Positions 1 to 21,499 of a DNA stretch of 21,499 nt are shown piece after piece. The DNA is taken from the IMG/VR virus record IMGVR_UViG_3300050821_001325, positions 1 to 21,499 of that record. The stretch is one strand, 5' to 3'. The notes under the pieces were generated by a model that did not search any database, was not told the DNA's origin, and saw nothing but the letters and a program-made list of their open reading frames with translations. Source of the DNA: a virus. Position 1 is the first letter of the stretch, and each line of letters begins with the position of its first letter. Both the position numbers and the translations under genes were made by a program.

Positions 1-2905
1 CGGTGATCGTCTGTTCCGCCCCGGTCGGCAGCGGCTGCCCGATCGTGACGGCGTCGTAAATGCGCGGCGCCCCGATATCGGACGTTGGCGTGGACTGCAC
101 CGCGATCACGGCTGGCGGACTGAGCAGTACGAACGTCTCGCCGACCGCGTGCGTCGCCATGCCAGCTTCGGTCGCGAACCGGCCGCGCAGGAATCCAGAT
201 AGCTGGTAGGTGTTCGTGCTGACTAGAGTCGCGCTCTTGAACTGGAGAATCTCCGCGCCTATCAGCGCCGCGTTGCTGCCGTTGAGCACTCCGAGCGCCG
301 TCGTCCCGGACAGCGTCTGCCCGGACAGGACGGTAACGGTCACAGTGCTGCACTCGTCGAAGACATTCCCGCCGGTCCAGTTGCCGAGCACGTTGGTCGC
401 GCGCCCGACCGTCGCGGGCGTTCCCATCGTGATGCCGGCAATGAACGATGCGCCCCCGTCGCTCGACTTGAAAAGGCCCCCGCCCGGCCAGCCCACGCCG
501 GGCCCGTACATCGCCACATACAGGTTCGGGCTACCCGTGCCGTCCTGATCGCGCAGCGGCGGGATGTCCATGATGACGGCAATAGTCGAGATGACACCGC
601 TCACGATCTGCCCGGCCGTGATCGCCCCGCCGTTGGCCGCCTGCGAATAGACCGGCGCGCATGCGACGCACTCCCAATCGATCTTGCCGCCGTTCTCGGT
701 CTTGCGGTTGATACGCGCTAGGTACGCCTCGTTGGCGGTCTGGATCGTGATGATGTCGGTCGGCTCAAGCTGTCCGGCCGGGACGGTGCCGGTACTCAAC
801 TTGTACGAGGTAGAGAACTTGAACGAGATGCGCCCGGCGATCGTGTCCCACAGGATGATGGCGGCGGCGACGGCGGCTTGCGTGTCATCCATGACCGTGC
901 CGGTATCGACGTTCACGACGTTATTGGACTCTATCCCGATCAGGCGGCGCGCGTACTGCACGCCTGGCTGGTAGTCGCCGCCGAGCGCGTAATAGGTGAG
1001 ATCGATTTCGGAAGGCAGTTCGATCTCGCTGCCGCGCACGAACGCCAGCGGGCTCGCGTTGTTCTTCCCGGTGGTGTCGGCGCCCATATCATCGAGCGTG
1101 ATCGTAGCCACAGGCGAGGCCGAGCGATGCACGAACTTGAGCGCGCCGTCCGACTCGACCGCATCGAACCACAGTGCCGGCGCAATGGCCTCGAAGGCCG
1201 CGCGCGCTGTCATCTGCCGATCGATGATGAAGCCCCACACGCCATCGGTGAGCGCAGTCGCGTTGATGCTGCCGCTCGCAATGCCGGCGCGTTCGGCGAT
1301 GTCGGTAACGATCGAGGACAGCGGAACCGTCGTAGCGGCCCCGAGCTGGCTCGCGCTGATGCAGTGGGCGCGGTTGCCTTCCTCGTACACCATGACACCA
1401 TTGTCGGCGAAGATCGATGCGTGGCTCGTCGGTGTTGGAATGGTGTAGTTGAGCTGACCGACCATCACGACCTGATTGGTCGCGCCATCAACCTTATAGT
1501 AGGACGCCTCCGGCACTCCGAAGAATCCATTCGAGGCCCAATAGGAGTTCAGGCTGGACTCCAGCATGGCCGTGCCGGGTGCCCAGTAATTGAAGGGGTC
1601 CAGCCAGGAGCCGTTGACGTTGCCGGTGTGAACGAAATCGCCCGGAGTGGTAAAGAGGTAGTAGGCGACCTCGGAACATGCGCCCAGGTCGGTGAACGCG
1701 ACCACGTGCAGCCAGACGTTCCCGGTGCCGGTGGCATCGCTCGTGATGACGCCGACGTGCTGCCAGTCAGCGCACGGGAAGGCCGCGTTGAAAGTCCAGA
1801 CTCCTGTGATGCCGGCCGGCTTGGTCAGGCACGCGAGCACATCCTGATCGACGTGTCCGGTCGTGTAGTTGCTGGTCCATAGGCCGGCCGCCGCGTTCGA
1901 TCCCTGCGGGCTCAGGGTGATCGCGCCCGGTCCGCGCATGTACACGCCGCAGCTGGAGCCGTGACTCGGGCAGGTCAGCACCATGCCGTTGCCGTACGGA
2001 TCTCGGAAGTAGGCGGCCCCGGACGAGATGGTGTTTTCGAAGTTGGTCGGGATGTCGGGCGATACGGTGGTACCGTCCGTCAGGTTCAGGCGATAGGCGG
2101 TTCCGTCGTTGCTAGCAATGGTGCTGAAGGTCTTGGCGATCGAGCGCACCGAGCCGTTCGCAAAGCCCGTCACGAAGACGGCGCGGCTGCCGTCTATGAA
2201 GTGGAAGCCCGTCGCATCGTTCTCCCACACCTTGACCGGAGCGTTGCCGGCAGTGGCCGTCGTGATCTCGACGTTGATCGACGGCAGTAGGTTCCCGTAA
2301 TTGACCAGCGGCAGGTTGCGAAAGACGATGTAGGCCGTGCCGCGGTAACCCGGAACGTTGCCGGCGCCGAGGGCGGCCTGCATGGTCGGGTCCGGGTTCT
2401 GGGTGAGCGTGCCCAGATACACGGTCATGTACTGCCCGGCGAACTCGTTCGAATTGATGAGCGTCGCCGGGGTTGCAGTAGAACTCACGTCGTAGACGAG
2501 GATCCCGTTCGCCCACACGCGGCGCACGCCGGTGATCGGTAGCCCGCCCGCGCAGTCGCACAGCGCGACCGCGAAGGTGCCGAAGTACGCGTAGCTTGTG
2601 ATGCTCGCTCCGCCGCCCTTGCCGCCCTGTGAGGTCCCGACCTCCTGGATCGGGAGTTGCCAGATCAGGGTCGGGACGATGCGGCAGTTGCCGTAGGCGA
2701 TCGGCAGCGGCGTCCCGTAGGCCGCGCTCTGGGCGAGCAGGGATCGGACGTGCGGGCCGCGAATATTCGGCGGGAATGCAATCGCTCCGATCCCGCTGCC
2801 CAGCGCATAGCCGAGTTCGGCCCCGTAGGTCGTGCCAATCGTCGTGTACGTGCCGATGACGCCGCCGACGACGGCGCCGACAAATCCTAAGACCTGCTGG
2901 CTCAT
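1..2905 (-). CDS. Tail tip / host-specificity protein, GTA megatron-like (3' end outside window)
   Basis: This frame is open for all 968 codons from an ATG that overlaps the peptidase stop (ATGA) to the window edge, so the C-terminus is missing. Residues 5-45 are a glycine-zipper, membrane-like segment. Residues 60-215 match the N-terminal region of large phage/GTA tip proteins: YGNCRIVPTLIW at 71-82, RVWANG at 129-134, GTLTQNPDP at 165-173 and VPGYRGTAYIVF at 184-195. Residues 770-930 carry the C-terminal signature, with PPLRDQDG at 782-789, NGSNAALIGAEILQF at 875-889 and GFLRGRF at 904-910. Residues about 235-520 look like a beta-rich insertion that I do not recognise. Proteins of this kind form the tail tip, contact the host surface and follow a DUF2460/DUF2163/NlpC set, as here. 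The family call is firm; receptor and exact fold are not visible. Confidence 0.9.
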   Translation of the reverse strand, partial: MSQQVLGFVGAVVGGVIGTYTTIGTTYGAELGYALGSGIGAIAFPPNIRGPHVRSLLAQSAAYGTPLPIAYGNCRIVPTLIWQLPIQEVGTSQGGKGGGASITSYAYFGTFAVALCDCAGGLPITGVRRVWANGILVYDVSSTATPATLINSNEFAGQYMTVYLGTLTQNPDPTMQAALGAGNVPGYRGTAYIVFRNLPLVNYGNLLPSINVEITTATAGNAPVKVWENDATGFHFIDGSRAVFVTGFANGSVRSIAKTFSTIASNDGTAYRLNLTDGTTVSPDIPTNFENTISSGAAYFRDPYGNGMVLTCPSHGSSCGVYMRGPGAITLSPQGSNAAAGLWTSNYTTGHVDQDVLACLTKPAGITGVWTFNAAFPCADWQHVGVITSDATGTGNVWLHVVAFTDLGACSEVAYYLFTTPGDFVHTGNVNGSWLDPFNYWAPGTAMLESSLNSYWASNGFFGVPEASYYKVDGATNQVVMVGQLNYTIPTPTSHASIFADNGVMVYEEGNRAHCISASQLGAATTVPLSSIVTDIAERAGIASGSINATALTDGVWGFIIDRQMTARAAFEAIAPALWFDAVESDGALKFVHRSASPVATITLDDMGADTTGKNNASPLAFVRGSEIELPSEIDLTYYALGGDYQPGVQYARRLIGIESNNVVNVDTGTVMDDTQAAVAAAIILWDTIAGRISFKFSTSYKLSTGTVPAGQLEPTDIITIQTANEAYLARINRKTENGGKIDWECVACAPVYSQAANGGAITAGQIVSGVISTIAVIMDIPPLRDQDGTGSPNLYVAMYGPGVGWPGGGLFKSSDGGASFIAGITMGTPATVGRATNVLGNWTGGNVFDECSTVTVTVLSGQTLSGTTALGVLNGSNAALIGAEILQFKSATLVSTNTYQLSGFLRGRFATEAGMATHAVGETFVLLSPPAVIAVQSTPTSDIGAPRIYDAVTIGQPLPTGAEQTIT

Positions 2906-10941: not shown

Positions 10942-12477
10942 TCACCCGTTCCCGATATTCGTGATGAGCCCGAACGCCGGCGGGAAGTAGTTCTGCAGCA
11001 CCCCGTCGAAGTACACGCCCCACTCATAGCGGCGGGTGACCATCGGCCACTCGAGCGCCCGGTAGTCGTACCGCAGCAGCTTGCGCAGCACTTGCCGCAC
11101 GCCCGACAGCGGATACGGGATCAGGTCCGAGTACGCCACGATCGTGCCCGGCGGCATGTTCGGGTGCACCCGCAGCATCACCTTTTTGCCGGTGATCTTG
11201 TTGATGAGCCCGGCGATCACCACCCCACCGATGATGTCGTTTTGCCCGGTCACGTCCAGGTTGTAGCGGAACAGGGGCGCCCCGCCACCCGCGATGATCT
11301 TCGCGTTGATGTTGGTCATCTCCTGCGAGCTGACGTACAGCGTGTCGGGCGACAGGCGGTACAGGTCGTACATCGAGCGGAACATAGCGTTGAGCTCCAC
11401 GATCCCGCCCGCGCCGTCACTGGTCAACGGCGTGCCCGTGCCGGCCGTACCGGTCGCCAGGGCCTTGTAATAGCTGCCCAGACCCTTCGACAGCTGCGTG
11501 ATGATGCCGTCGTAGACGTAGCCGTTTTCCGAGTTGTCCGACGACGGCAGGGCCGTGGCGTTCTGCGTGCCGGTCGAGTCGGCCGTGATCAGGGTCGAGT
11601 TGATCGTGGTCACTGCCCCGAGCACTTCGCTGCCTGCCGACTGACCCCAGTACCAGGCGTACGCCACCGCGCCGACCACGGGCGTGACCGTCGCCGTCAT
11701 CGAGCCGGTCGCTCCGGTCACGGCCACGGTCGCGTTGGCGGACTTTTGCGCAACGCCGCCGCCATAACTGTCGCTTGCCCCGTTGGCCGTGGTGCGGTTG
11801 AAAACCGCCGTCAGGGCCGCCGTAGCCGCGCTAAAAGCCTCGCCCGTCGTGCCCATGTTGATGCCGGCCAGTTGGATATAGCCGTCATTGGTCAGTGCGA
11901 CGCAGATCACCGAATACGTGTGCGAGCCGAGCGTGCCGCCGGTGGTCGAGGCCGCCAGCGTCGGCGTGGGCGTGGTGCCCAGCGCCAGGGACGTGTTGCC
12001 GCCCAGGTCGATGAGTTCTTCCGACACCATCGTGGCGCGCAGCAGGTTGTCCACCACCAGCGCCTTGAGGTCCGCGAACCCTTCGGCCGTGTACTCGGCT
12101 TTCCAGGTGAGGTTGTCTTCCTCGCCGAGCTCGCGGAAGGCCGCGAAGTAGTCGGCCGTGGTGTGGTTCACGACCGCGTTGCGGTTGCCTTCCGACACGC
12201 CGGGCGACTGGTGCCCGCTGTTGATCCCGGTGATCGCGCGCCAGTTGGCTTGCGTACCGCCCGGGGCTTTTGCGCGCGGAATGCGGTCGCGCAACGGCGT
12301 GTCGATCGGGAAGAGCTGCTTGACCGGAACTTCGAGGTCGTAGTAGTTGATCCCGGAGGTCGCCGAGGTCGGCGCAATCCATCCGGCTTTCGCGAGAGAT
12401 CCGCCCGCGGCCAGTGCGCGTCGCACCAGGTCGAGCGATTCCCCCGTCAGTGCTGACGCAGGCAAAATCGAACTCAT
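10942..12477 (-). CDS. Major capsid protein with inserted Ig/FN3-like domain
   Basis: The 511-residue product lies directly after the prohead protease. I start at ATG 12477 because AAGGGGG sits 5 nt upstream; the GTG one codon earlier is too close. Capsid-like segments are NYYDLEVPVKQLFPIDTPLRDRIPR near 45-69, a helix with ADLKALVVDNLLRATMVSEELIDL and a C-terminal half with LYRLSPDTLYVSSQEMTNINAKI, IAGLINKITGKKV and LEWPMVTRRYEWGVYFDGV. Between about 165 and 315 lies a Thr/Gly/Ala-rich beta segment (GSHTYSVICVALTNDG, then GAVAYAWYWGQ) that resembles an Ig or fibronectin-type fold and probably projects from the capsid. An HK97 fold is expected from the neighbours; it is not proven by sequence reading. 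Confidence 0.9.
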   Translation of the reverse strand: MSSILPASALTGESLDLVRRALAAGGSLAKAGWIAPTSATSGINYYDLEVPVKQLFPIDTPLRDRIPRAKAPGGTQANWRAITGINSGHQSPGVSEGNRNAVVNHTTADYFAAFRELGEEDNLTWKAEYTAEGFADLKALVVDNLLRATMVSEELIDLGGNTSLALGTTPTPTLAASTTGGTLGSHTYSVICVALTNDGYIQLAGINMGTTGEAFSAATAALTAVFNRTTANGASDSYGGGVAQKSANATVAVTGATGSMTATVTPVVGAVAYAWYWGQSAGSEVLGAVTTINSTLITADSTGTQNATALPSSDNSENGYVYDGIITQLSKGLGSYYKALATGTAGTGTPLTSDGAGGIVELNAMFRSMYDLYRLSPDTLYVSSQEMTNINAKIIAGGGAPLFRYNLDVTGQNDIIGGVVIAGLINKITGKKVMLRVHPNMPPGTIVAYSDLIPYPLSGVRQVLRKLLRYDYRALEWPMVTRRYEWGVYFDGVLQNYFPPAFGLITNIGNG

Positions 12478-12482
12478 CACAG

Positions 12483-12489
12483 CCCCCTT
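12483..12489 (-). promoter_or_regulatory. Ribosome binding site of the capsid gene
   Basis: The minus strand reads AAGGGGG, 5 nt before the ATG at 12477. The 89-nt gap before the capsid gene also contains a 10-bp palindrome, CTTCGCGAAG (12539-12548), of unknown meaning. Confidence 0.6.
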
Positions 12490-12566
12490 GGGTTAGGGAG
12501 TTCGCCGGGCACGCCCCGACGCGCGGTTAGGTTGATCTCTTCGCGAAGCCTCGCGGCCCGCGCGCC

Positions 12567-14255
12567 CTATCTCAGCAGCTGCTGAGCCCGGCTCGGGTCC
12601 AGCAGCTTCTTCATCCAAGTTGCCGCCTCGTCCACGCGGCCATCGACCACGACCGGCGGGACCTCTGGCGCGCCGCCACCGCGCTCGACCACCGTCAGCC
12701 CCGCGGCCCGCAGCATGTCGGCCGCCTGCTGGCTCGCCACCGGCAGGCCCCCCACCGGCTGGCGCGCGATGACCTCGACCGTCTTGCGCAGGTCGGCCGT
12801 GGCCGCGCCCACCGCATCGCCGATCAGCTTGGCGAGGTTCGCAGCAGCTTCCTCGTCGGTGCCGGCCGCTGGCGTGGTCACAGCGGCAGCAGGAGTCGCC
12901 GTCTTGGTCAGGATCTTGCCGGCCTCGGCAATCGCGTCGGCCAGGATCTTTTCGCCCTCGGCCTTGGTCGGTGCCGCTGCCGCCTTGGCGATCCCGGCAG
13001 CGACGATCTTGGCGGCCTTCTTGCCGTCGTCATCGTCGCCGTCGTCCGCGCCGTCGCCGTCCTTCGGCATGAGCGCGTCCATCTTGTCGCACGCCTCCTT
13101 CGCCATCGACGTGCATTCCTTCATGGCCTTGTGCAACTTGCCCAGGTGTTCCGCGTGCGCGTCCATTGCCGCCTTGGTTTCTTTCGAGAACTTCGCGCCG
13201 GCCTTGTTGAGTTCGGCGAGCTGCAGCTTCGGATCCATCGACTGTCCTTTCATCACAAGTTGGATTGCCTCGCCCGCTTGCTCGCGCAGCGAATCAACGA
13301 GTTCGTTGGCTTCCTCTTCGGCCATGTCGCAGAAGATATCGACACCACTCTGCATCCATTCTCGCATCTGCGCCGGCACCGGCGAGCCGTCGCCCTCCCA
13401 GTCGAAGTCCGCCTGCGCGGCCTGGCAGATCCACGCGAGCGATTCCAGGCACTGGGCGAAGTTGGCGACAGAGTAGAGGCCCTTGGCGAGCTTTTCGCCG
13501 TCGTCCGCGCTGGGCGGGCCGTCCTTGTCGATCTTCTTCTTCCAGGCCGCGACGATCTTGCGCTTGATGCTGGCAACTTGAGCGGAAGAATACTGCGCCT
13601 GGTTCTTTTCCTTGTTGATGTAGTTCCACGCGGCCCGGATGTGGGCCTCGGTGTCGATCGGGTAACGCTTCTTCTTGTCCTCTTGGTAGCCGGGGTCGGC
13701 GTACTCCACGTCGCCGTACGGCTTGGCCGCGTCCTTCTCTAACGCCGCATCGATCAGGATCTCCGGATCGACGGCTTTCTTCTTGAGCAGTTCGACCAGG
13801 TCATCGAGCGCCGCGTCGGCCGAGCGCTTCGCCATCAGGATCTCGCACTCCGGATTCGCCGGCCGATCTACCAGCGAGACCTCGATCAGCTTGATCGCCG
13901 TGATAATCGTCTTGTCGAGCTCGTCGCGATCCTCGATCCGGCCACCGACCGAGAAGCCCTTCAGCACCTTGTTCTGCACCTTCTTGACCGCGATCGGATC
14001 GACCACGTGCGCGCCGAACCACGTGCGTCCGTCGTCCTGCACCGTGGCTTCGATCGCCGTGCCGACCGCCTTGGGCTGGTGCATCTCGCGCACCGCGCCC
14101 CACTTCAGGTAATCGGGCAGCGCCGCCTTGATCGCCTCGGGCTGGATCGTCTCGCCGTCCTCGTCCTGCTCGCCCGTGGAGGCGTAGCCCCAAACCTTGA
14201 TCGTGCCGTCGTCGGCTTCTTCGACCTTTGTGATCGGCGCGTACAGGCGTTTCAT
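12567..14255 (-). CDS. Prohead protease (XkdF-like) fused to scaffold-like C-terminus
   Basis: The first 140 residues carry the HK97-type prohead serine protease pattern: VWGYASTGEQDEDGE at 21-35, H59 in EMHQPKAVG, S102 in LKGFSVGG and E125 in LIEVSLVDRPANP, giving a likely His-Ser-Glu triad. Residues about 155-250 resemble the small DUF6582-type unit found in XkdF-like proteins (YPIDTEAHIRAAWNYIN, YSSAQVASIKRKIVAAWKKK). The remainder is helical, rich in Ala, Lys and Asp, with an acidic run near 400. It resembles a scaffold, and no separate scaffold gene is present. The enzyme should cut itself and the scaffold during head maturation. The ATG overlaps the upstream TGA (ATGA). Confidence 0.87.
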   Translation of the reverse strand: MKRLYAPITKVEEADDGTIKVWGYASTGEQDEDGETIQPEAIKAALPDYLKWGAVREMHQPKAVGTAIEATVQDDGRTWFGAHVVDPIAVKKVQNKVLKGFSVGGRIEDRDELDKTIITAIKLIEVSLVDRPANPECEILMAKRSADAALDDLVELLKKKAVDPEILIDAALEKDAAKPYGDVEYADPGYQEDKKKRYPIDTEAHIRAAWNYINKEKNQAQYSSAQVASIKRKIVAAWKKKIDKDGPPSADDGEKLAKGLYSVANFAQCLESLAWICQAAQADFDWEGDGSPVPAQMREWMQSGVDIFCDMAEEEANELVDSLREQAGEAIQLVMKGQSMDPKLQLAELNKAGAKFSKETKAAMDAHAEHLGKLHKAMKECTSMAKEACDKMDALMPKDGDGADDGDDDDGKKAAKIVAAGIAKAAAAPTKAEGEKILADAIAEAGKILTKTATPAAAVTTPAAGTDEEAAANLAKLIGDAVGAATADLRKTVEVIARQPVGGLPVASQQAADMLRAAGLTVVERGGGAPEVPPVVVDGRVDEAATWMKKLLDPSRAQQLLR

Positions 14256-14494
14256 GTTTTCGGCTCCACGATCTTGACCGTCAATTCAACTCCGAATTGC
14301 GTCAGCATCAGCGCTCGCACCGCATCGGCCTTGTTCATCAGCAACGCGGTCGCGCGATTGTGCGGCGCCCCGATCGACAGCGTCTGCGCCAGCGTGCGGG
14401 CGTGATGCTCCAGGCCCTTCGGGAGCATGGCGATGATCTCGACCTGGTCGGTTTCCGGGTGCGCCTGGATGACGGTCCATACCTGTTCGACCAC
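14252..14494 (-). CDS. Small protein of unknown function (80 aa)
   Basis: The GTG start abuts the upstream TGA, with GGAA and AGGAAGAG purine runs before it. The peptide has one beta-alpha-beta-like pattern: VEQVWTVIQAHPETDQVEIIAML, then a helix (LEHHARTLAQTLSI), then NKADAVRALMLTQFGVELTVKIVEP. It ends in an ATGA overlap with the protease gene. I recognise no family. It is the last of four consecutive short genes between portal and protease. Confidence 0.7.
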   Translation of the reverse strand: MVEQVWTVIQAHPETDQVEIIAMLPKGLEHHARTLAQTLSIGAPHNRATALLMNKADAVRALMLTQFGVELTVKIVEPKT

Positions 14495-14590
14495 TCAATT
14501 TCCGCTCTTCCTCAACCGTCGCCCTTCGAGGCGCAATCGCAGCCATATGATCGGATGCTGCCACCAACGCACGCTGATGGTACCGCCCAT
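14495..14590 (-). CDS. Basic microprotein (31 aa), function unknown
   Basis: A 31-codon frame starts with an ATG that overlaps the previous TGA (TGATG) and ends directly before the GTG of the next gene. It has a WW pair at residues 9-10, a short hydrophobic stretch (HPIIWLRLRL) and a strongly basic end (EGRRLRKSGN). Its perfect fit in a chain of overlapping genes supports translation, but it may serve mainly to couple its neighbours. No family is recognised. Confidence 0.5.
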   Translation of the reverse strand: MGGTISVRWWQHPIIWLRLRLEGRRLRKSGN

Positions 14591-14829
14591 CAGAAGAAGT
14601 CCTGCCGCGTGATCGCCCGCCGGATGCACATCATGCCGATCTGCAGATGCGTGCGCCCGATGGTGAGCCAGCCCGGATCGACCTCGCCGCTCGATTCCTG
14701 GATGAATCGCAGCATGTGCCGCAGATTGTTCTCCATCGTCTTGCAGTGCGCCATCTTTTCCTCGTGCGCCACGCTCAAGCGCCGCTGCGCTTCCTGCGCG
14801 AGCGAGGGCGGGGCGGCGTGGGTGTTCAT
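14590..14829 (-). CDS. Acb2/Tad1-like candidate cyclic-nucleotide sponge (anti-CBASS/anti-Thoeris)
   Basis: The 79-residue protein starts at an ATG overlapping the stop of the preceding gene (ATGA). Residues 10-47 form a charged helix. Residues 51-79 read DPGWLTIGRTHLQIG followed by MMCIRRAITRQDFF, which closely matches what I remember of the helical hairpin of Acb2 and Tad1: a Trp, a Thr-His-Leu-Gln run, a basic RRAI helix and a terminal Phe. Acb2 binds cyclic di- and trinucleotides that activate CBASS; Tad1 binds Thoeris cyclic ADP-ribose signals. The plain length (79 aa) fits an Acb2-type small oligomer better than full-length Tad1. The match is from memory of the family, not from a search; which nucleotide it binds, if any, cannot be read here. 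Confidence 0.72.
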   Translation of the reverse strand: MNTHAAPPSLAQEAQRRLSVAHEEKMAHCKTMENNLRHMLRFIQESSGEVDPGWLTIGRTHLQIGMMCIRRAITRQDFF

Positions 14830-14954
14830 GCCGATTTGCGCCGAACGAGCGCAAGCAGGGCGTTGAAAAGCGCCGAGCCGCCCGCAAAGCCGAGGCCGAA
14901 GAAAAAGCCGACCACGATCAGGTGCCACCAGTTGCCTGAGTTGATGATGTCCAT
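14826..14954 (-). CDS. Single-pass membrane microprotein (42 aa)
   Basis: The ATG overlaps the portal TAA by one base (TAATG) and is preceded by GGAGG at 7 nt within the portal gene. The longer open frame upstream is portal antiframe and is rejected. The peptide has a hydrophobic segment WWHLIVVGFFFGLGFAGGSALFNALLALV (about residues 9-37) followed by RRKSA, which predicts one membrane helix with a cytoplasmic basic tail. No signal-peptide cleavage site is obvious. It ends in an ATGA overlap with the Acb2/Tad1-like gene. The function is unknown; a holin-like or superinfection role is speculative. Confidence 0.72.
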   Translation of the reverse strand: MDIINSGNWWHLIVVGFFFGLGFAGGSALFNALLALVRRKSA

Positions 14955-17263
14955 TACGCGGCCTCCGTCTCGGTCACGACCGGCGAGATATCGCAGCGGC
15001 ACGCGGGATGCAGCGGAGGCCCGTCGCCACCCTCGCCCGGGAACGACTCGTCGATATCGACCTCGACGCCGTCCAGATCGCAGCACTCAGGACAACAGTC
15101 GTCCCCGACGATCCACTGCTTGCGCTCCACCACGCCCGACGCCTGCCAGCCGATGAGGTTGCCGGCCACATCCGCCCGCGCAGTCTCGGTGCGCGCGATC
15201 ACGTCAGCTCGAGCCGCGCTGAACGCGTAGGACGCCTTGAGGTTCGCCGCTAGCGTGTCGTTGCTCCAGCCCTCGTCGATTGCGCTGGCGACCAGCCCCC
15301 GCACGTGCGAGCGCGTGCCGTCCGTGATGGCGAACTCCGCCCGCGGGTTATCGACCAGATCGCCGTCCTCGTTGTAGCGCTTGCCGACCAGTTCGGCGGC
15401 GCGCGTCCGGGCCCACCGTTCGGCGTCTTCGTTCGGAGAGTCGAGGTCCAATTCAACGCCGACCTGATCCAATCCCATGCGCGCGCCATCCTTCGCTACC
15501 GTGGCAAGGCCGGATTCGAAGGCGCTCACCATCCCGTCCATAGCAGCCAGGTCCAGAGCCTGGGCGATGTCATCGGGCAGGCGATCGCCGCTGGCCTTCT
15601 TCCGCTCCGGCAGGCGGTCGGCGATCTGCTTGGCAATGTCGGGTGCCATCTTGCGCAGTGTCTTAGTAAGGGCGCGGCTCAGGCGCTCCGTGGCCGTTTT
15701 GACGAGGCGCCGGTCGCGGTCGATGCGCGCCGGCGCTCGCGCTTTTCCCAGGCCGTTGGCAGCGGCCCCCTTGCCCGCTGCCGCGCCGCCCGAGGCGTGC
15801 TCGTCGTCCGAATGTGGAGCAGCCGCGCCGCCACCTTGAGCGGAGGTTGACGCTACCGGAGGAGAAGCCGGGGGAGTCTGGGCGGGCGGCGGCTGACCGT
15901 CTTGCCACACCGCCGGGGACGGCACCGGGGTGGGAGAGCGCTGCATCGCGAACAGCCACGCGATGGTTTGATCGTCCAGAGGATCGAGCCCGTCTTCGGC
16001 GCGGGCCTCGTTCGGGTGGAGCGCCCCGGCGGCGATCTTGTTTTTGATGATGGTCGATTTTTCGACCGGGTCGATCGCCTCGTCGTCTTTCCAGTTGTGG
16101 CGGAAGTCGGCAAAGCCCATCCGCTCCAGGCAGTCATCGACGAGCTCGCTGATCCAGACCTGATACGGTGCCAGCCCTTCGGCCAGGGCCGCCTCGCGCG
16201 TGGTCTCTTGCGTTCCGCGGTTGACCTGCTTGATGAACGGCGTCGGGTCCACTCCGTAGGCCGCGCACTGCACGCGCGCCAGCCACTCGTCGAACTCGTC
16301 CTTCAGATCGATCTTCTTGAACTCGTGCGTGCCGATCCCGTCCGGAATGAAATGCGTGCGGGCCCGCTCGGCGAGGTTGCCGGAAAAGCGCGCATCCCAG
16401 CGAGCTTGAAAGGACTCGATCTGCTCCGCCGTCCACTCCTTCGGCACGCTCAGCAGGTAATGCGGCATCGACCCTTCCGTGAAGTGGTCGAGCTGCTGCA
16501 CCTGCCGGCGCAGCGCCACGTTCACGGTCAGGATCACCCGCTCGATGGGCGAGTAGCCGTACAGGTGCGAGGTCCGCAGAACGCGCGGCTTGTACACCAT
16601 CTGGTCGTGCGTGTACCAGATGGCCGGCGTGCCGTGCAGGACCTGCGAATAGGCCGGCAGCGGCGGGATCGGCCGATGGCCCTGCAGGTCGATGAGCGGC
16701 TTGATGGTGGAGCCGTCGATCGGGTCGAACCCCCACACGACGCCGGTGCGGTCGCGCCGAACGAAAAGGCACGGCGCATCGATCACCAGCAGGTCGTCCA
16801 GCAGCATGGACAGCCACTCGCGCCAGGTGTGCCGCTGATCGGGCTTGCGCCACCAGTTCTCGAGCTCGATCGCCTGCGCGGCCATCGTCTTGCGCTTGCT
16901 GGTATCGCGCGGCTCGATCGACCATTCGAGCTTGGCGAGCTGATCCTTGCGGCCGTTGATGATGATCGACAGCAGGTCCGAGTGCGCCAGCTGCCGCATC
17001 GTCTGAAACGAGATGAGCTCTTCCGAGCGCGGCGTGTACCGGATGTTGGAGCCGACGACGTAGTCGAGCTGGCGGCCCTCGACGGACGGCTTTTGCGAGT
17101 CCGGCACGATCGGCTGGATCGGATTGAGCGGCGGGAACCAGCCCTGCGAGAAGTCGCCCGTGAGCGCATAGCGGAACGCGCCCCGCAGCCGGTCCCAGAA
17201 GCCCGGCGTTCCGGCCGTGTCCGACAGGTCGGTGACGCGCGAGGCTTGGGAGGCGTCGGGCAT
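14954..17263 (-). CDS. Portal protein fused to MuF (phage head morphogenesis) domain
   Basis: The 769-residue product combines two normally separate proteins. Residues about 60-420 are portal-like: QLAHSDLLSIIINGRKDQLAKLEWSIEPRD, a WREWLSMLLDDLLVIDAPCLFVRRD segment, IERVILTVNVALRRQVQQLDHFTEGSMPHYLL and GVDPTPFIKQVNRGTQETTREAA. A Pro/Ala/Gly linker lies near 450-500. Residues about 520-769 contain the MuF pattern: ASYAFSAARADVIARTETARA near 678-698, a CCPECC cluster at 723-728 and HPACRC at 752-757, suggesting a metal site. The portal forms the DNA entry ring and the MuF domain is a minor head protein that may be co-packaged. The ATG follows the upstream TGA by one base. Confidence 0.92.
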   Translation of the reverse strand: MPDASQASRVTDLSDTAGTPGFWDRLRGAFRYALTGDFSQGWFPPLNPIQPIVPDSQKPSVEGRQLDYVVGSNIRYTPRSEELISFQTMRQLAHSDLLSIIINGRKDQLAKLEWSIEPRDTSKRKTMAAQAIELENWWRKPDQRHTWREWLSMLLDDLLVIDAPCLFVRRDRTGVVWGFDPIDGSTIKPLIDLQGHRPIPPLPAYSQVLHGTPAIWYTHDQMVYKPRVLRTSHLYGYSPIERVILTVNVALRRQVQQLDHFTEGSMPHYLLSVPKEWTAEQIESFQARWDARFSGNLAERARTHFIPDGIGTHEFKKIDLKDEFDEWLARVQCAAYGVDPTPFIKQVNRGTQETTREAALAEGLAPYQVWISELVDDCLERMGFADFRHNWKDDEAIDPVEKSTIIKNKIAAGALHPNEARAEDGLDPLDDQTIAWLFAMQRSPTPVPSPAVWQDGQPPPAQTPPASPPVASTSAQGGGAAAPHSDDEHASGGAAAGKGAAANGLGKARAPARIDRDRRLVKTATERLSRALTKTLRKMAPDIAKQIADRLPERKKASGDRLPDDIAQALDLAAMDGMVSAFESGLATVAKDGARMGLDQVGVELDLDSPNEDAERWARTRAAELVGKRYNEDGDLVDNPRAEFAITDGTRSHVRGLVASAIDEGWSNDTLAANLKASYAFSAARADVIARTETARADVAGNLIGWQASGVVERKQWIVGDDCCPECCDLDGVEVDIDESFPGEGGDGPPLHPACRCDISPVVTETEAA

Positions 17264-17264
17264 G

Positions 17265-18185
17265 TCAGCGGCGGCGGCGCGCCCGGATCGTGCCGTAGGC
17301 AGACAGGGCCGCCGCGGTGAAGGTGCCCTCGGCGTTCAGGAACAGGTTCGTGGTCGTGGCGAGCTTGTAGCGGACCTGCGGCAACGGACCCTCGATGTTG
17401 TTGGCCCCCGGCACCAGGCCAGCGGCGGCGGCGCGCGATGTGAATCCGCTGCCGGAGTCGATCTGCGCGGTGGTCAGGCTCGAGCTTGCCTGCAGCGCCG
17501 TGATGTTGGTGGTCCCGGCCGGCACGAACCCGACGAACCCGAACACGTCCCAGTCGCCGGCCGTGAGCGACAGACTTGCAACCTGCGCGGGCGTGGCCGT
17601 GGTGAGCGAGACGGCGGACCCGGAAGCAACGACCGTCTCGGCATACTCGCCCACGAATCCGGCCGCGGCGTCCGAGCTGGTCGCCACGCCCTTGATCGGC
17701 TGGGCAATCGCGCCGGTCGAATCGAGCTCGGCGAACCCGACCACGGCCGTGCCGCTGCCCGGGGTGCCGCTGGTCGATGCGCCGCCTTCGAGCACGTCGC
17801 CCGCGATCAGAGCAGTTCCGCCCGATTCCTTGATCGTCGGCGGCGTGGTGCCGCTGGGAAGCTGCGCGCTCGGAACCTTGCCGGTCGCATCCAGCCCGGC
17901 CACGCCCTGGACCGCGCTGCCGCTGCCGGGCGTGCCGGTGCTGGCCGCCGCCACGCGCAAGGTATCGCCGGATATCATCGTGGCGCCGTTGGCGCCTTTG
18001 AGCGTCGGCCCGGGCTCGGCAATGCCGCCACTCACGACGAGCAGGGCGCCAGCAGCAATGAGCGCGGACTCCTGAGCCGAGCCGGCCGTCACGCTGAAGG
18101 TGCCGCTGCTATCGGCCTGGAGCAGACCGGACGGCGAGCTGAAATTGAGTTGAGAAGTCGGCAGGCGATATTGAGCGGTCGTCAT
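17265..18185 (-). CDS. Fibre/decoration-like structural protein with internal duplication (306 aa)
   Basis: The protein is low in charge and rich in Gly, Ala, Ser and Thr. Residues 60-109 and 116-163 are two copies of one unit (PTLKGANGATMISGDTLRV versus PTIKESGGTALIAGDVLEG, each followed by GTPGSG and an LDxTG motif). The LDATGKVPSAQLPS phrase is typical of phage tail-fibre shafts. The last 120 residues (LTAGDWDVFGFVGF, then YKLATTTNLFLNAEGTFTAAALSAYGTIRARR) look like a beta-sandwich receptor or decoration domain. Its place between terminase and portal suggests a head-associated fibre rather than a tail fibre, but this is inference. The ATG abuts the upstream TAA; the TGA is 1 nt from the portal ATG. 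Confidence 0.8.
   Translation of the reverse strand: MTTAQYRLPTSQLNFSSPSGLLQADSSGTFSVTAGSAQESALIAAGALLVVSGGIAEPGPTLKGANGATMISGDTLRVAAASTGTPGSGSAVQGVAGLDATGKVPSAQLPSGTTPPTIKESGGTALIAGDVLEGGASTSGTPGSGTAVVGFAELDSTGAIAQPIKGVATSSDAAAGFVGEYAETVVASGSAVSLTTATPAQVASLSLTAGDWDVFGFVGFVPAGTTNITALQASSSLTTAQIDSGSGFTSRAAAAGLVPGANNIEGPLPQVRYKLATTTNLFLNAEGTFTAAALSAYGTIRARRRR
17697..18008 (-). repeat. In-gene duplication of a ~50-residue unit
   Basis: Within the 306-aa protein, residues 60-109 (18008-17859) and 116-163 (17840-17697) align along their length, sharing PT-K, GATMISGD/GTALIAGD, STGTPGSG/TSGTPGSG and GLDATG/ELDSTG. The repeat is clear in protein and diverged in DNA. Confidence 0.7.
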
Positions 18186-18452
18186 TTACATGCTCTGCCG
18201 TGCGGCGCGGTCTGCACCGTCGGCGGAAATTCCAAGGTCGGTTGAGTGCTCGCCGCACCAGAAGTCAGACTTGACCGGCGGGAACGCGGCAACCGTACGC
18301 GCTTCTCCTTTCGGTCCCGGCACCAGAAAGACGCGCGGCGCGTGGGCGCGGCATTCGTTCTGTATCGCGCTGAAATGCGCGCAGGTCTGGCAGGTCCCGT
18401 TCATTGCGCTTCTGCGCTCCTCGATGAGCTTTCGGTTGCGCGCCTCGCCCAT
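18186..18452 (-). CDS. Small Cys-motif protein, CxxC-C-WCG type (88 aa)
   Basis: The 88-residue product has C21 and C24 (CQTC), C34 and C66 in FWCGEH, a spacing that suggests a small metal-binding fold. A basic N-terminal tail (GEARNRKLIEERR) precedes it; ATG at residue 17 is a possible alternative start. The pattern C-x2-C, then C with HAP, then P-V and a final WCG is one I have met in short hypothetical proteins of proteobacterial phages. The neighbour upstream has the same pattern, so the two appear to be diverged tandem paralogues. Function is unknown. Confidence 0.78.
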   Translation of the reverse strand: MGEARNRKLIEERRSAMNGTCQTCAHFSAIQNECRAHAPRVFLVPGPKGEARTVAAFPPVKSDFWCGEHSTDLGISADGADRAARQSM

Positions 18453-18456
18453 TTAC

Positions 18457-18645
18457 TCACGCCTTGGTCCAATCGCCGCACCAGTCCTTCGGGTTGACGC
18501 GCGGCCACTCAACGGCGACCCCGGCGGAGTGCGCGCACGGAACCGGAGCGTGCCGCTGGCACCGCAGCAGCTTCGGATCGCTGCCGGGTCTGGAGGAGGC
18601 ACAAGTTGAGCACGAGGGAGGCGCGGGAGCGGGCGTTGTGGTCAA
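18457..18645 (-). CDS. Small Cys-motif protein, second copy (62 aa, TTG start)
   Basis: This short frame has no ATG. The most economical start is TTG at 18645, which overlaps the upstream TGA (TTGA). It encodes CSTC at residues 12-15, C29 and C37, and a final PKDWCGDWTKA with C56. This matches the downstream 88-aa protein: CxxC, then C with RHAP, a hydrophobic P-V phrase and WCG. It ends 4 nt before the next ATG. A longer antisense-like extension of the frame runs upstream through the 116-aa gene and is not credible. Function is unknown. Confidence 0.65.
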   Translation of the reverse strand: MTTTPAPAPPSCSTCASSRPGSDPKLLRCQRHAPVPCAHSAGVAVEWPRVNPKDWCGDWTKA

Positions 18646-18992
18646 ACGCTTGAGCCGTCGTGGTCGCGCCAGGTCGCGCCGTCCCACACGATGATGTGGC
18701 CGACCGTCGTGTCGTAGTAGAGCACGCCTCGGCTCACGTTGGGCGCAACCGGACGCTGAGCGGTCGTACCGCTGAAGCGGCCGAAGGCGGTCCAGCCGTT
18801 TTCGATCATCACGCTGCCGTCCATTGCCGGCACTTGGAGCGACGCACCCAGCGCGGCCGTGTACGTGCGGCCGTTCACCACGATCGGGTTGGCGCCGCTG
18901 TTTTTCGTGGCCCCTGATGCGCCGCTCGCTGACGGCGGCAGCACCGTGATGAGGCCGGTGGCCGAGTCGGGTACGTCCGGGTGATGCGCCAT
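18642..18992 (-). CDS. Fibre/decoration-like protein (116 aa)
   Basis: The protein starts at an ATG 3 nt after the upstream TGA. It is beta-rich and low in charge, with a hydroxyl-rich start (ATGLITVLPPSASGASG), VVNGRTYTAALGASLQVPAMDGSVM in the middle and a C-terminal GVLYYDTTVGHIIVWDGATWRDHDG. This last phrase is a common element in phage fibre and decoration proteins, where a product or window is displayed. With the 306-aa protein it may form a head-associated appendage. The exact role is not determined. Confidence 0.75.
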   Translation of the reverse strand: MAHHPDVPDSATGLITVLPPSASGASGATKNSGANPIVVNGRTYTAALGASLQVPAMDGSVMIENGWTAFGRFSGTTAQRPVAPNVSRGVLYYDTTVGHIIVWDGATWRDHDGSSV

Positions 18993-18995
18993 CGG

Positions 18996-19181
18996 TCAGA
19001 CCTCCACGGGTTGCTGGGCGAGCAGATTCCAGAGCGTTTCGATCGATTCGTCCGACGGCCTTGGCACCGGGCCAGGACCGGCCGCAGCGGCAGCACCGCG
19101 CAGATACCAGCTCTCCAGCGCGGCGCGCAGGTCCGCCCGGTTGATCGTGATGGTGGGAGGCATCGCCATCAGGCGCGTCAT
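18996..19181 (-). CDS. Small protein of unknown function (61 aa)
   Basis: The start is the ATG in an ATGA overlap with the upstream microprotein; GAAGAAGA lies before it. The frame extends further upstream, but that part overlaps the microprotein and looks like antiframe sequence. The peptide has TITINRADLRAALESWYLRGAAAAAGPG followed by PRPSDESIETLWNLLAQQP, which suggests two short helices around an Ala/Gly/Pro linker. No family is recognised. Confidence 0.65.
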   Translation of the reverse strand: MTRLMAMPPTITINRADLRAALESWYLRGAAAAAGPGPVPRPSDESIETLWNLLAQQPVEV

Positions 19182-19324
19182 CCGCCGATCTTCTTCTCGA
19201 TTGTGCCGGCCTCGGCGATGAGCTTCGCGGCAGCGGACGGATGCAGCTTCCCCCACCACAGCGCAAGGCCCGCAACCACGGTATGGGAGATGACGAGAAC
19301 CACGACAACCATCCACGTCGGCAT
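19178..19324 (-). CDS. Single-pass membrane microprotein (48 aa)
   Basis: A 48-codon frame starts at ATG 19324, 66 nt after the large terminase gene, and ends in an ATGA overlap with the next gene. Residues 3-24 (TWMVVVVLVISHTVVAGLALWW) form one hydrophobic helix; the rest is a short amphipathic tail (KLHPSAAAKLIAEAGTIEKKIGG). A GGGA lies before the start at a suboptimal distance. A holin-like or Rz-like role is possible, but no endolysin is nearby. Confidence 0.7.
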   Translation of the reverse strand: MPTWMVVVVLVISHTVVAGLALWWGKLHPSAAAKLIAEAGTIEKKIGG

Positions 19325-19390
19325 GACAATTCCCGTCACGGATGCAAATTGCGCTGGACAATACGCGCGATTCTTCAGGTTGGAAAGCCC

Positions 19391-20920
19391 TTACTCGCCG
19401 TGGAAGGTGTTCTGGCGCACGGTGACGCCCGAGGCTGGCTTGGACAGAACCGGCGTTGCAGGTCGCTCGTGCCCTGCGGGGACAGATCCGTTTGCGCCAT
19501 TCTTAGACTTTTCGTCCTGGGCGGCCATCCAGTCGAGCAGGCCCGTGGTCGATTGCGCCAGGGCGAGCTCGGTGATCGCCCACACCAGCGCGTCCAAGCG
19601 GTTCGGGGACTTCTTCGACGTGTTCGGGTCCCAGTCGCACAGTTCGTCCTCGAGCCGGGCGAAGGCGCCGACGTGGTGGACCCGGTTCTGCTGGTACAGA
19701 GACGACACCGGTTCTGCCCGGACCTGCTTGCCACGGCTGGCGCTCACGGCCTTGTACGGCACGTTCCGATCGACGGTCCGGATCACCATCTCGACCATGT
19801 CGCCCCCGAAGTTGACCTCGGCCACGATCCGGTCGGCCTTCAGATCCCGGTACAGCTGCACCGCGACCTGGCCCCAGCCGTCGCCTTCGTCCGTGACTGG
19901 CTTGGCATGGACCGACGAATCGTCCAGGACATACGCGTCCCCGTCCTCGCCCAGCCCGGCCGCGACGATCCCGCACTCGGCCGCCTCGGACGCCGTCGAG
20001 CCCATCGGGTCGATCGCCACCACGATGCGGCGCAGCGCCGGCGCCACGCGAACCCGGTTGCGCTCGATCACCGGCCGCTGCCACAGCGCGCCCGGGTTGT
20101 CGTCTAGCAGGTCGGCGTCGAGCTCCTGGCGGCCTAACCGCGTGCCGATGTACTTGCCGACGATGTTGGTGAGGAACGTGCGCGCCAGGTTGTGGGCGTT
20201 ATCGTAGGTCGTTCCACGTGAAACAATGGCCCCAGGATCGCTCAGGATCGCTTTAAAAACGGGGACATTCTTAGGGGTCGTGGTGATGCAGGCTTGCGGG
20301 CGATCGCCCAGCCTGAGCCCGAATTGGGCCTGATCCCAGGCATCCGCATAGCGCCAGGCCGCCAGCTCGTCCGCCCAGATGCCGCCGTGGGCCGGGCCGC
20401 GCAGCCGTTCCGGCTCGTCGGCGCTGAAAAGTTCGGAGATGTGGCCGTTGGGCCATGTCAGGCGTAGCAGGGACGGCTCATAGACCGGCCGCTCAGCCGG
20501 CGGGCACACGGCCAGGATGCCGGACGGGCCCTCGACCATGACCGCGCGTATGTCGTGGGCGGTCGGGGCGATGAGGCTCACCCGGTCGGTGGTCCGGATC
20601 TTGCGCCGCACCCATTCGGCCCCGACCCGCGTCTTGCCGGTGCCGCGGCCGGCGTTGTTGACCCAGTACGTCCAATCGTCGGTGGCCGGCGCTGGCTCCC
20701 ACCGATCCCCACGGTAGCGCCAGTACTGGCCGGCGCCCAGCGGGTGGTCAAGCGTGGCCGTTGGTTCGAGCTGTTCCGTTCGTGCCCAGAATTCCCGCCA
20801 CGCGTACAGCAGCGTGATCCGGTCCTTCGGGGTGAGCTTGGCCAGGCGCTTGAGCTTTTCCTGCGTCGGCAAGTTCCGGAACAAGTCGGCCGGCGATCGA
20901 TCGGGCGGCCTCTGAGTCAT
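19391..20920 (-). CDS. terL: Terminase large subunit
   Basis: The 509-residue protein has the large-terminase plan. The Walker A motif is AGRGTGKT at residues 90-97, the Walker B motif is IWADELAAW at 181-189 with D184 and E185, and a coupling segment TTTPKNVPVFKAI follows at 213-225. The nuclease half has D304 in VVAIDPMG, E368 in IVAEVNFGGD and D443 in SPNRLDALVWA, the expected acidic metal-binding residues. The enzyme pumps DNA into the head and cuts it at packaging ends. The start ATG lies inside the small-subunit gene and has no clear Shine-Dalgarno, so coupling is likely. The segment at residues 232-236 includes a parS-like DNA sequence. Confidence 0.96.
   Translation of the reverse strand: MTQRPPDRSPADLFRNLPTQEKLKRLAKLTPKDRITLLYAWREFWARTEQLEPTATLDHPLGAGQYWRYRGDRWEPAPATDDWTYWVNNAGRGTGKTRVGAEWVRRKIRTTDRVSLIAPTAHDIRAVMVEGPSGILAVCPPAERPVYEPSLLRLTWPNGHISELFSADEPERLRGPAHGGIWADELAAWRYADAWDQAQFGLRLGDRPQACITTTPKNVPVFKAILSDPGAIVSRGTTYDNAHNLARTFLTNIVGKYIGTRLGRQELDADLLDDNPGALWQRPVIERNRVRVAPALRRIVVAIDPMGSTASEAAECGIVAAGLGEDGDAYVLDDSSVHAKPVTDEGDGWGQVAVQLYRDLKADRIVAEVNFGGDMVEMVIRTVDRNVPYKAVSASRGKQVRAEPVSSLYQQNRVHHVGAFARLEDELCDWDPNTSKKSPNRLDALVWAITELALAQSTTGLLDWMAAQDEKSKNGANGSVPAGHERPATPVLSKPASGVTVRQNTFHGE
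20210..20225. promoter_or_regulatory. parS-like ParB-binding sequence inside terL
   Basis: The plus strand reads CGTTCCACGTGAAACA. The chromosomal parS consensus is TGTTNCACGTGAAACA; the 14-base core GTTNCACGTGAAAC matches exactly and only the first base differs. The coding strand reads it through the conserved terminase phrase IVSRGTTY, so the protein sequence explains part, not all, of the match. Whether it is bound is not known. Confidence 0.5.
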
Positions 20921-21236
20921 TCGGCAGGTTGAGGTTAGCGTTCACTATCGTTTCGCGGTATCCCATGCGGGTCTTTGTCCACCAGATCATCGCCGTGGTG
21001 TCGCCCCCCGTGGCCTTGGCGAACAGGGACTTGACAATCTGTCCGTTGGCCCGCTGTCCGCCGCTTGCAATTTCTTCGCGGAAGGCCCGGCTTAGGGTCT
21101 TGCGGTCCAGAGCGCCGTTTGCGCCCGGGATGGCGAGCCGGATCGTATCGAGCGGTATGCCACCGGCCACCAAGGCCGCGACGTAGTCGCGCTGCTCGTC
21201 CGTTGGCTCGAATCTGGGTCGCCCTGTTCGCGGCAC
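20748..21236 (-). CDS. terS: Terminase small subunit
   Basis: The 162-residue protein has an N-terminal helix-turn-helix-like region: FEPTDEQRDYVAALVAGGIPLDTIRLAI at residues 9-36, then KTLSRAFREEIASGGQRANGQIV. It then has SLFAKATGGDTTAMIWWTKTRMGYRE, a pattern common in small terminases and DNA-packaging partners that bind the packaging site. It starts at GTG, and its last 57 codons overlap the large-subunit gene in another frame by 173 nt. Those last residues (AQAPGQAHPEGPDHAAVRVAG) are poor in structure, as expected of a sequence constrained by the other frame. The helical core is intact upstream of the overlap. Confidence 0.85.
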   Translation of the reverse strand: MPRTGRPRFEPTDEQRDYVAALVAGGIPLDTIRLAIPGANGALDRKTLSRAFREEIASGGQRANGQIVKSLFAKATGGDTTAMIWWTKTRMGYRETIVNANLNLPNDSEAARSIAGRLVPELADAGKAQAPGQAHPEGPDHAAVRVAGILGTNGTARTNGHA

Positions 21237-21238
21237 CG

Positions 21239-21257
21239 TTTTTCTACCGGGGAAAAA
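21239..21257 (-). other. Short inverted repeat upstream of terS
   Basis: The minus strand reads TTTTTC, then seven bases, then GAAAAA, just 2 nt before the terS GTG. It is a 6-bp, A/T-rich stem and could be a packaging or operator element or chance. The 56-nt gap here has no clear -35/-10 promoter. Confidence 0.25.
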
Positions 21258-21292
21258 GTCGGCCCGAATCTACACGATTTCCAGCGAAGTGG

Positions 21293-21433
21293 TCACTCTT
21301 CATCGTCGAAATCGCGCTCCCATATCCGGCGAAGAAACGGCGGCAGCCAGATCGCCACGAGCACGAGGACGGCGATGCCGAACACGGCGATGGCGCCGAC
21401 CGTGAGGGCGATGACGATCTCATCGGCTGCCAT
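21293..21433 (-). CDS. Single-pass membrane microprotein (46 aa)
   Basis: A 46-codon frame starts at ATG 21433 and overlaps the end of the preceding frame. Residues 5-31 (EIVIALTVGAIAVFGIAVLVLVAIWLP) form one strong membrane helix, followed by FLRRIWER and an acidic tail (DFDDEE). This is the charge layout of a small phage membrane protein with the basic end in the cytoplasm. It stands directly before terS. No family name is assigned. Confidence 0.68.
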   Translation of the reverse strand: MAADEIVIALTVGAIAVFGIAVLVLVAIWLPPFLRRIWERDFDDEE

Positions 21434-21499
21434 TGCGCGGCTTCATGCGCCAGGCGTGGTTGCCGGGTGTCTGGTTCATGCCGAGGGCGCGCATTTCCT
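21420..21499 (-). CDS. 3' end of an unidentified gene (partial)
   Basis: A frame entering from the right edge ends at a TGA at 21420-21422, inside the membrane-microprotein gene. The visible peptide includes MNQTPGNHAWRMKPRNGSR. It could instead be a 24-codon gene starting at ATG 21494. Too little is present to assign a function. Confidence 0.35.
   Translation of the reverse strand, partial: EMRALGMNQTPGNHAWRMKPRNGSR

Follow-up and report, generated by a model that had tools for sequence, protein, structure and literature searches.

The window, a 21.5-kb IMG/VR virus record, carries a set of late genes on the minus strand: the small and large terminase subunits, a tail-fibre-like gene, a portal-MuF fusion, a prohead protease, a probable major capsid protein and tail genes, a tape measure gene among them. 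A long tail-tip-like reading frame (2-2901, minus strand) continues past the left window end, so the record is incomplete on that side. The portal-MuF fusion (14954..17263, minus strand; PF04860 and PF04233; phrog_2662, E 3.9e-109) and the protease, a Peptidase_S78 (12567..14255, minus strand; PF04586, E 1.5e-7; phrog_80, head maturation protease), are the upstream and downstream borders of a gap holding four small genes. The probable major capsid gene (10942..12480, minus strand) is named from its position; it matches phrog_13692 (E 9e-140), a family of unknown function. All four small genes lie on the minus strand: a 42-aa protein (14826..14954), membrane-like by its sequence with one hydrophobic segment by eye and supported by its junction; a 79-aa protein (14590..14829), which from its PF24729 and PDB matches to Acb2 p26, its purifying selection and its predicted hairpin appears to be a divergent Acb2/Tad1-hairpin protein; and two ORFs recognised by their junctions, of 31 aa (14495..14590) and 80 aa (14252..14494). 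The 79-aa ORF opens with an ATG at 14829, closes with a TGA at 14592-14590 and ends in ...DPGWLTIGRTHLQIGMMCIRRAITRQDFF; the sequence-only reading had placed it between portal and prohead protease, and the Pfam and PHROG assignments of the flanks bear this out.

How tightly is the small gene tied to its neighbours? Overlapping or abutting start and stop codons are the usual mark of translational coupling, and from portal to protease the junctions read TAATG, ATGA, TGATG, TGAGTG and ATGA. The stop of the upstream 42-aa gene overlaps the start of the Acb2-like gene (ATGA), the stop of the latter overlaps the start of the 31-aa ORF (TGATG), and the stop of the 80-aa ORF overlaps the protease start (ATGA). 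The genes from portal to protease, the Acb2-like gene included, thus look translationally coupled. Relatives of the 31-aa ORF were sought in the fetched loci, where none appeared except in a near-identical contig (L002, 99.9%), and a PHROG search with the 80-aa ORF gave no match.

A resemblance to Acb2 and to the related Tad1 had been read from the letters, with an HMM search proposed as the check. The Acb2 part of that resemblance held: the Pfam model PF24729 (Acb2_Tad1_hairpin) matches residues 18-75 of the 79-aa protein with 28.5 bits (E 1.7e-6), above its cut-off of 27, the sole phmmer matches in the PDB are the Acb2 (p26) entries 8ixz and 8h2j (E 4e-4), and a clade-profile search of the PDB reaches Acb2 p26 at E 6e-5. 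The Tad1 part has to be dropped, as neither phmmer nor the clade profile returned a PDB sequence match to Tad1 and the PDB structure search returned none either. A custom HMM made from about 90 canonical Acb2 homologues gave 26.8 bits for the protein; 2000 shuffles reached 9.6 at most, and the next ORF of the window about 5. Canonical stand-alone members tested with PF24729 reach 57-71 bits, which marks the 79-aa protein as divergent; its relatives from two further contigs, L003 and L004 (71% and 68% identical to it), score 26.2 and 25.7, slightly below the cut-off. The PF24729 match starts at profile position 5 and not at position 1, and canonical members carry the GY of GYR there. Searches against NCBIfam and PADLOC gave no meaningful match, GenBank phages searched at the DNA level gave none, bacterial genomes scanned with clade patterns yielded no relative, and IMG/VR yielded no clade copies past L002-L004. 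By its profile matches the protein belongs to the PF24729 hairpin superfamily, two of the three clade copies scoring just below the cut-off. Membership in Acb2 in the strict sense is withheld because the conserved functional motif, GYR with its pocket tyrosine, was tested for and is absent, and membership in Tad1 is denied. It is best described, from these comparisons, as a divergent variant of the Acb2-family hairpin, with a family name that needs care.

Does the predicted structure agree? The AlphaFold2 monomer, built from a 36-sequence alignment, is all-helical, with helices at 10-45 and 52-74, a mean pLDDT of 83.6 and a low-confidence N-terminus. The two-helix hairpin expected earlier is therefore predicted, but the fold match to Acb2 is not significant: among 350,542 PDB chains searched with Foldseek the top six are Acb2, at E 0.64 or worse and a best TM of 0.41. 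As a control, canonical PaP2 Acb2 taken through the same pipeline matched the crystal structure of PaP2 Acb2 with an E of 1e-13 and T4 Vs.4 with 2e-3. Tad1 (Thoeris anti-defence 1) shares with the window protein the Pfam hairpin family name and two C-terminal helices; an N-terminal beta-sheet domain has been described for it (PMC12043709), and the model of the window protein has no such N-terminal antiparallel beta-sheet domain. Could the protein be a short helical head protein with a chance likeness to Acb2? Weak matches are common for short helical sequences, and the non-significant Foldseek result would fit. Yet three independent profile tests concur and the six best fold matches, though non-significant, are all Acb2, and we regard a chance likeness as extremely improbable.

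The pattern of selection points to a gene in use. Between the window and L003, dN and dS are 0.015 and 0.51 in the C-terminal part (window V50 onward) and 0.28 and 1.0 in the N-terminal part, values from a Nei-Gojobori count that was coded by hand and applied to short sequences. In their final 26 residues the three copies do not differ at all. Constraint, in the form of strong purifying selection, falls on the second helix (WLTIGRTHLQIGMMCIRRAI). Given the start and stop overlaps with its neighbours and a dN well below dS, the 79-aa ORF is a real translated gene, and it looks functional. A decayed acb2 remnant without function would explain the loss of several family-invariant residues and a profile score that is weak beside those of canonical members; it sits badly with an intact frame and coupled junctions, with a dN well below dS and 26 unchanged last residues in three copies from different phages, and with a gene transferred to, or retained at, two different sites. 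Such a remnant is very improbable.

Which residues have been kept and which lost? The alignment has 36 rows, 33 diverse IMG/VR relatives and the three window-type sequences (window, L003 and L004). In PaMx33 numbering, G10, Y11, R12, L14, M22, N23, K26, Q77, G79, M81, R85, A88 and P90 are invariant in all 33 relatives. The window-type sequences all keep R12, L14, Q77, G79, M81 and R85, the last four being Q63, G65, M67 and R71 of the window protein. They have replaced G10-Y11 by AQ or AK, N23 by A, A88 by T and P90 by Q, and R67, conserved in at least 90% of a canonical set, is Gly. K26 survives in the window copy alone, as K30, and is Q in L003 and L004, where the M22 position is Leu. The window protein has no tyrosine along its whole length. 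So few residues of the N-terminal segment are conserved that its alignment is uncertain; PaMx33 Y11 aligns with T4 Y8. These losses, the GY with Y11 and N23 among them, indicate that the classical dinucleotide pocket has very probably been dismantled or rebuilt, and absence of the N-terminal motif with the pocket tyrosine, present in 33 of 33 relatives, weakens the case for a sponge.

Published work on T4 Acb2 helps to weigh these changes. Y8A, described as a binding-deficient mutant, does not act (PMC12657230; PMC12657218), binding is reduced in T68M (PMC12657230), and the Acb2 trinucleotide site has been described at the trimer interface (PMC12043709). T4 Vs.4 (Acb2; PDB 7uq2) has in common with the window protein the PF24729 domain, the threonine of T68 (T60 in the window protein) and an arginine equivalent to R79; its Y8 and F82 positions are changed in the window protein, and its gene lies within a cluster of small non-structural genes, unlike the window gene. 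Acb2 of the Pseudomonas phages PaP2/PaMx33 (p26; PDB 8h2j, 8h2x, 8ixz) shares the C-terminal helix motif W-L-x-I-G-[KR]-T-x-x-Q-x-G-M-M-x-I-x-R-A-I and a pattern of two long helices, predicted in the window protein. It differs in size (93 aa, the window protein being the shorter at 79), in having the MDNQHKKIKGYR N-terminus, whose absence from the window protein removes Y11, in its N23, R67 and P90, all gone from the window protein, and in its setting, the PaMx33 acb2 lying in a replication operon and the window gene in a structural one. Might the window protein still act as a classical Acb2, binding 3'3'-cGAMP-like dinucleotides and blocking type I/II CBASS despite its altered N-terminus? The PF24729 score above the cut-off would suit this, as would T60 and K30 in the window copy, but a tyrosine-free protein is hard to reconcile with the loss of T4 Acb2 function in Y8A (PMC12657230, PMC12657218), and the K26 position is Q in both related copies. 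Classical activity is, all told, improbable.

The surroundings of the related copies suggest a mobile gene. In L003 and L004 it sits farther down the late operon, directly ahead of a putative major tail protein gene (by eye), and nucleotide similarity to the window near the gene is limited to the gene itself (~14578-14829). Tail-tip proteins are 44-49% identical, and a search of these loci with the window head proteins gave no match. The simplest reading of these comparisons would be that the Acb2-like gene moved alone. A survey of 80 loci found via the portal detected an Acb2 gene in the near-identical contig alone; for 20 of these loci the complete records were searched too, again without detecting one, a negative that does not amount to proof of absence. 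One portal locus, L124 (portal 63%, protease 75% identity), is an empty site in which the portal stop overlaps the protease start (GCATGAAG). In other portal loci the distance between what can be recognised of portal and protease runs from ~20 bp to 3.5 kb, the longest gaps perhaps being in part divergent ends of the two genes; these loci hold varied small genes, some lysozyme-like by eye. The four small genes of the window are best seen, from this comparison, as one cargo within a variable slot.

Seen across the group, the portal-protease junction (window 14252-14954; loci L124-L201) is a variable accessory slot of these phages, perhaps worth mining for counter-defence genes. One cargo in it, at L173:1992-2405, resembles an SMI1/KNR4-type protein by eye. 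A homologue of the 42-aa protein, 47% identical, lies outside the slot at L139:2441-2554, so the 42-aa gene may also be mobile. The nearest GenBank relative by portal is Brevundimonas phage Strzyga (38% identity), which has a more canonical Acb2-like gene, with an AGYQ motif, in its replication region (L009:4776-5192), suggesting independent acquisition within the same broad lineage.

What else could a hairpin with an altered pocket do? It may have been repurposed: the Acb2 oligomer helix would be kept and nucleotide binding lost, giving a small late protein-binding factor that assists head assembly, for example, or inhibits a host protein. In keeping with this, the pocket tyrosine and other invariant N-terminal residues are lost, the gene lies between two head-assembly genes and constraint centres on the second helix. 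However, the junction is variable, with the L124 site empty and different cargo in other relatives; since it is a variable slot, the Acb2-like gene is dispensable for building this head type. The L003/L004 copy, moreover, has other late genes around it, and the head proteins there are unrelated, which misfits an assembly role specific to a partner. Repurposing is therefore rather unlikely, though it deserves to be taken seriously.

Is a late operon an odd place for such a gene? The sequence-only reading had taken the position as a possible sign of a transcript made earlier than normal, a suggestion that finds no support, on three grounds. The genes look coupled; no sigma-70-like promoter match was found in 12400-21499, a scan confined to that promoter type, and an early internal promoter was rejected on this result; and in annotated GenBank phages Acb2-family genes occur in the structural operons of at least seven other lineages. 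In Beetrevirus JBD67, Acb2 lies between the major head protein and a head-tail adaptor, and Beetrevirus SS2019XII also has its family gene in the structural operon. The gene follows the tail tube in Vibrio R19R, the major head protein in Shewanella 1/41 and, directly, the portal in Vibrio D80; it lies between terminase and portal in Marinobacter PS6 and between portal and scaffold in Thiohalocapsa LS06, and precedes the tail sheath in Vibrio 1.087. Outside structural operons are the genes of PaMx33, T4, Ac42, B8b, Vibrio 1.193, Strzyga and KPP23, and eight further records have theirs elsewhere or in an unclear setting, counts that are not frequencies because the phages were hand-picked for diversity. 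A scan of IMG/VR confirmed more than 440 Acb2 homologues. Among 92 genes adjoining Acb2 homologues (PHROG/Pfam), families for head building and packaging are numerous (portal, protease, scaffold, capsid, terminase), and HNH, ssDNA-binding and thymidylate synthase genes occur as well. A limited literature search found no published account of this structural-operon pattern. Late placement of the Acb2-like gene is not anomalous.

JBD67 offers a precedent. Its Acb2 (gp34) lies, like the window gene, within the head operon; it follows the major head protein and differs in its canonical GYR motif, its slot and its length of 108 aa. Functional work has made use of a JBD67 delta-acb2 phage (Huiting et al. 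2023, cited in PMC13083879), and since this gene was studied by deletion, late-operon residence is compatible with anti-CBASS function.

Taking the sequence comparisons together, we lean, with somewhat more confidence than doubt, toward a late-expressed sponge for a cyclic-nucleotide-type signal, a divergent form of the Acb2/Tad1 hairpin with a changed pocket. How would it work? The gene shares its coupled operon with those of portal and protease and would be expressed late. Homology and the monomer model suggest that its product is probably a two-helix hairpin that oligomerises like Acb2. It would probably sequester a host defence signal produced during infection and so keep a CBASS-type or related effector off during virion assembly. 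Because a different N-terminal segment stands in place of the one with the canonical dinucleotide-pocket tyrosine, the ligand probably falls outside the classical 3'3'-cGAMP set that this pocket binds. The gene may have come as cargo into the variable portal-protease slot and would be able to move alone. A more specific proposal, which we offer tentatively and would not expect to hold in full, concerns the rare clade of the window, its near-identical contig, L003 and L004. Here the dinucleotide pocket would have been dismantled and the remaining oligomer surface would sequester a defence signal of another kind, such as a cyclic trinucleotide at the trimer interface or one that no sponge has yet been linked to, with late structural operons supplying the protein from a single-gene cargo that moves into head- or tail-gene junctions.

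Such a protein would matter in several ways. Acb2 serves to study phage suppression of CBASS and of related signalling. In a natural variant that has the oligomer helix but not the residues of the dinucleotide pocket, evolution could have parted the two binding sites, and such a variant could reveal a new ligand. The repeated presence of Acb2-family genes in capsid and tail operons implies that some sponges are probably made late, which bears on the timing of the alarm signal and suggests searching head-gene junctions for unannotated counter-defence genes.

Two further observations concern the wider family. In many Pseudomonas phages the Acb2 homologues carry the annotation 'NAD/FAD-utilizing enzyme' (L017:4001-4288, L206:3001-3231, L208:1455-1745), a misleading label that spread, it seems, by annotation transfer. 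Another family architecture is found in KPP23_062 of Pseudomonas phage KPP23 (L014:4179-5081), where the Acb2 hairpin is fused to an N-terminal region. The BFVD entry W8VUQ6, second by fold, is taken to be this protein from its 300-aa length and its match. Fusions of this type (300 aa) have the PF24729 hairpin at the C-terminus, as does the window protein, and differ from it in an N-terminal extension of ~200 residues and in the tyrosines retained ahead of the hairpin.
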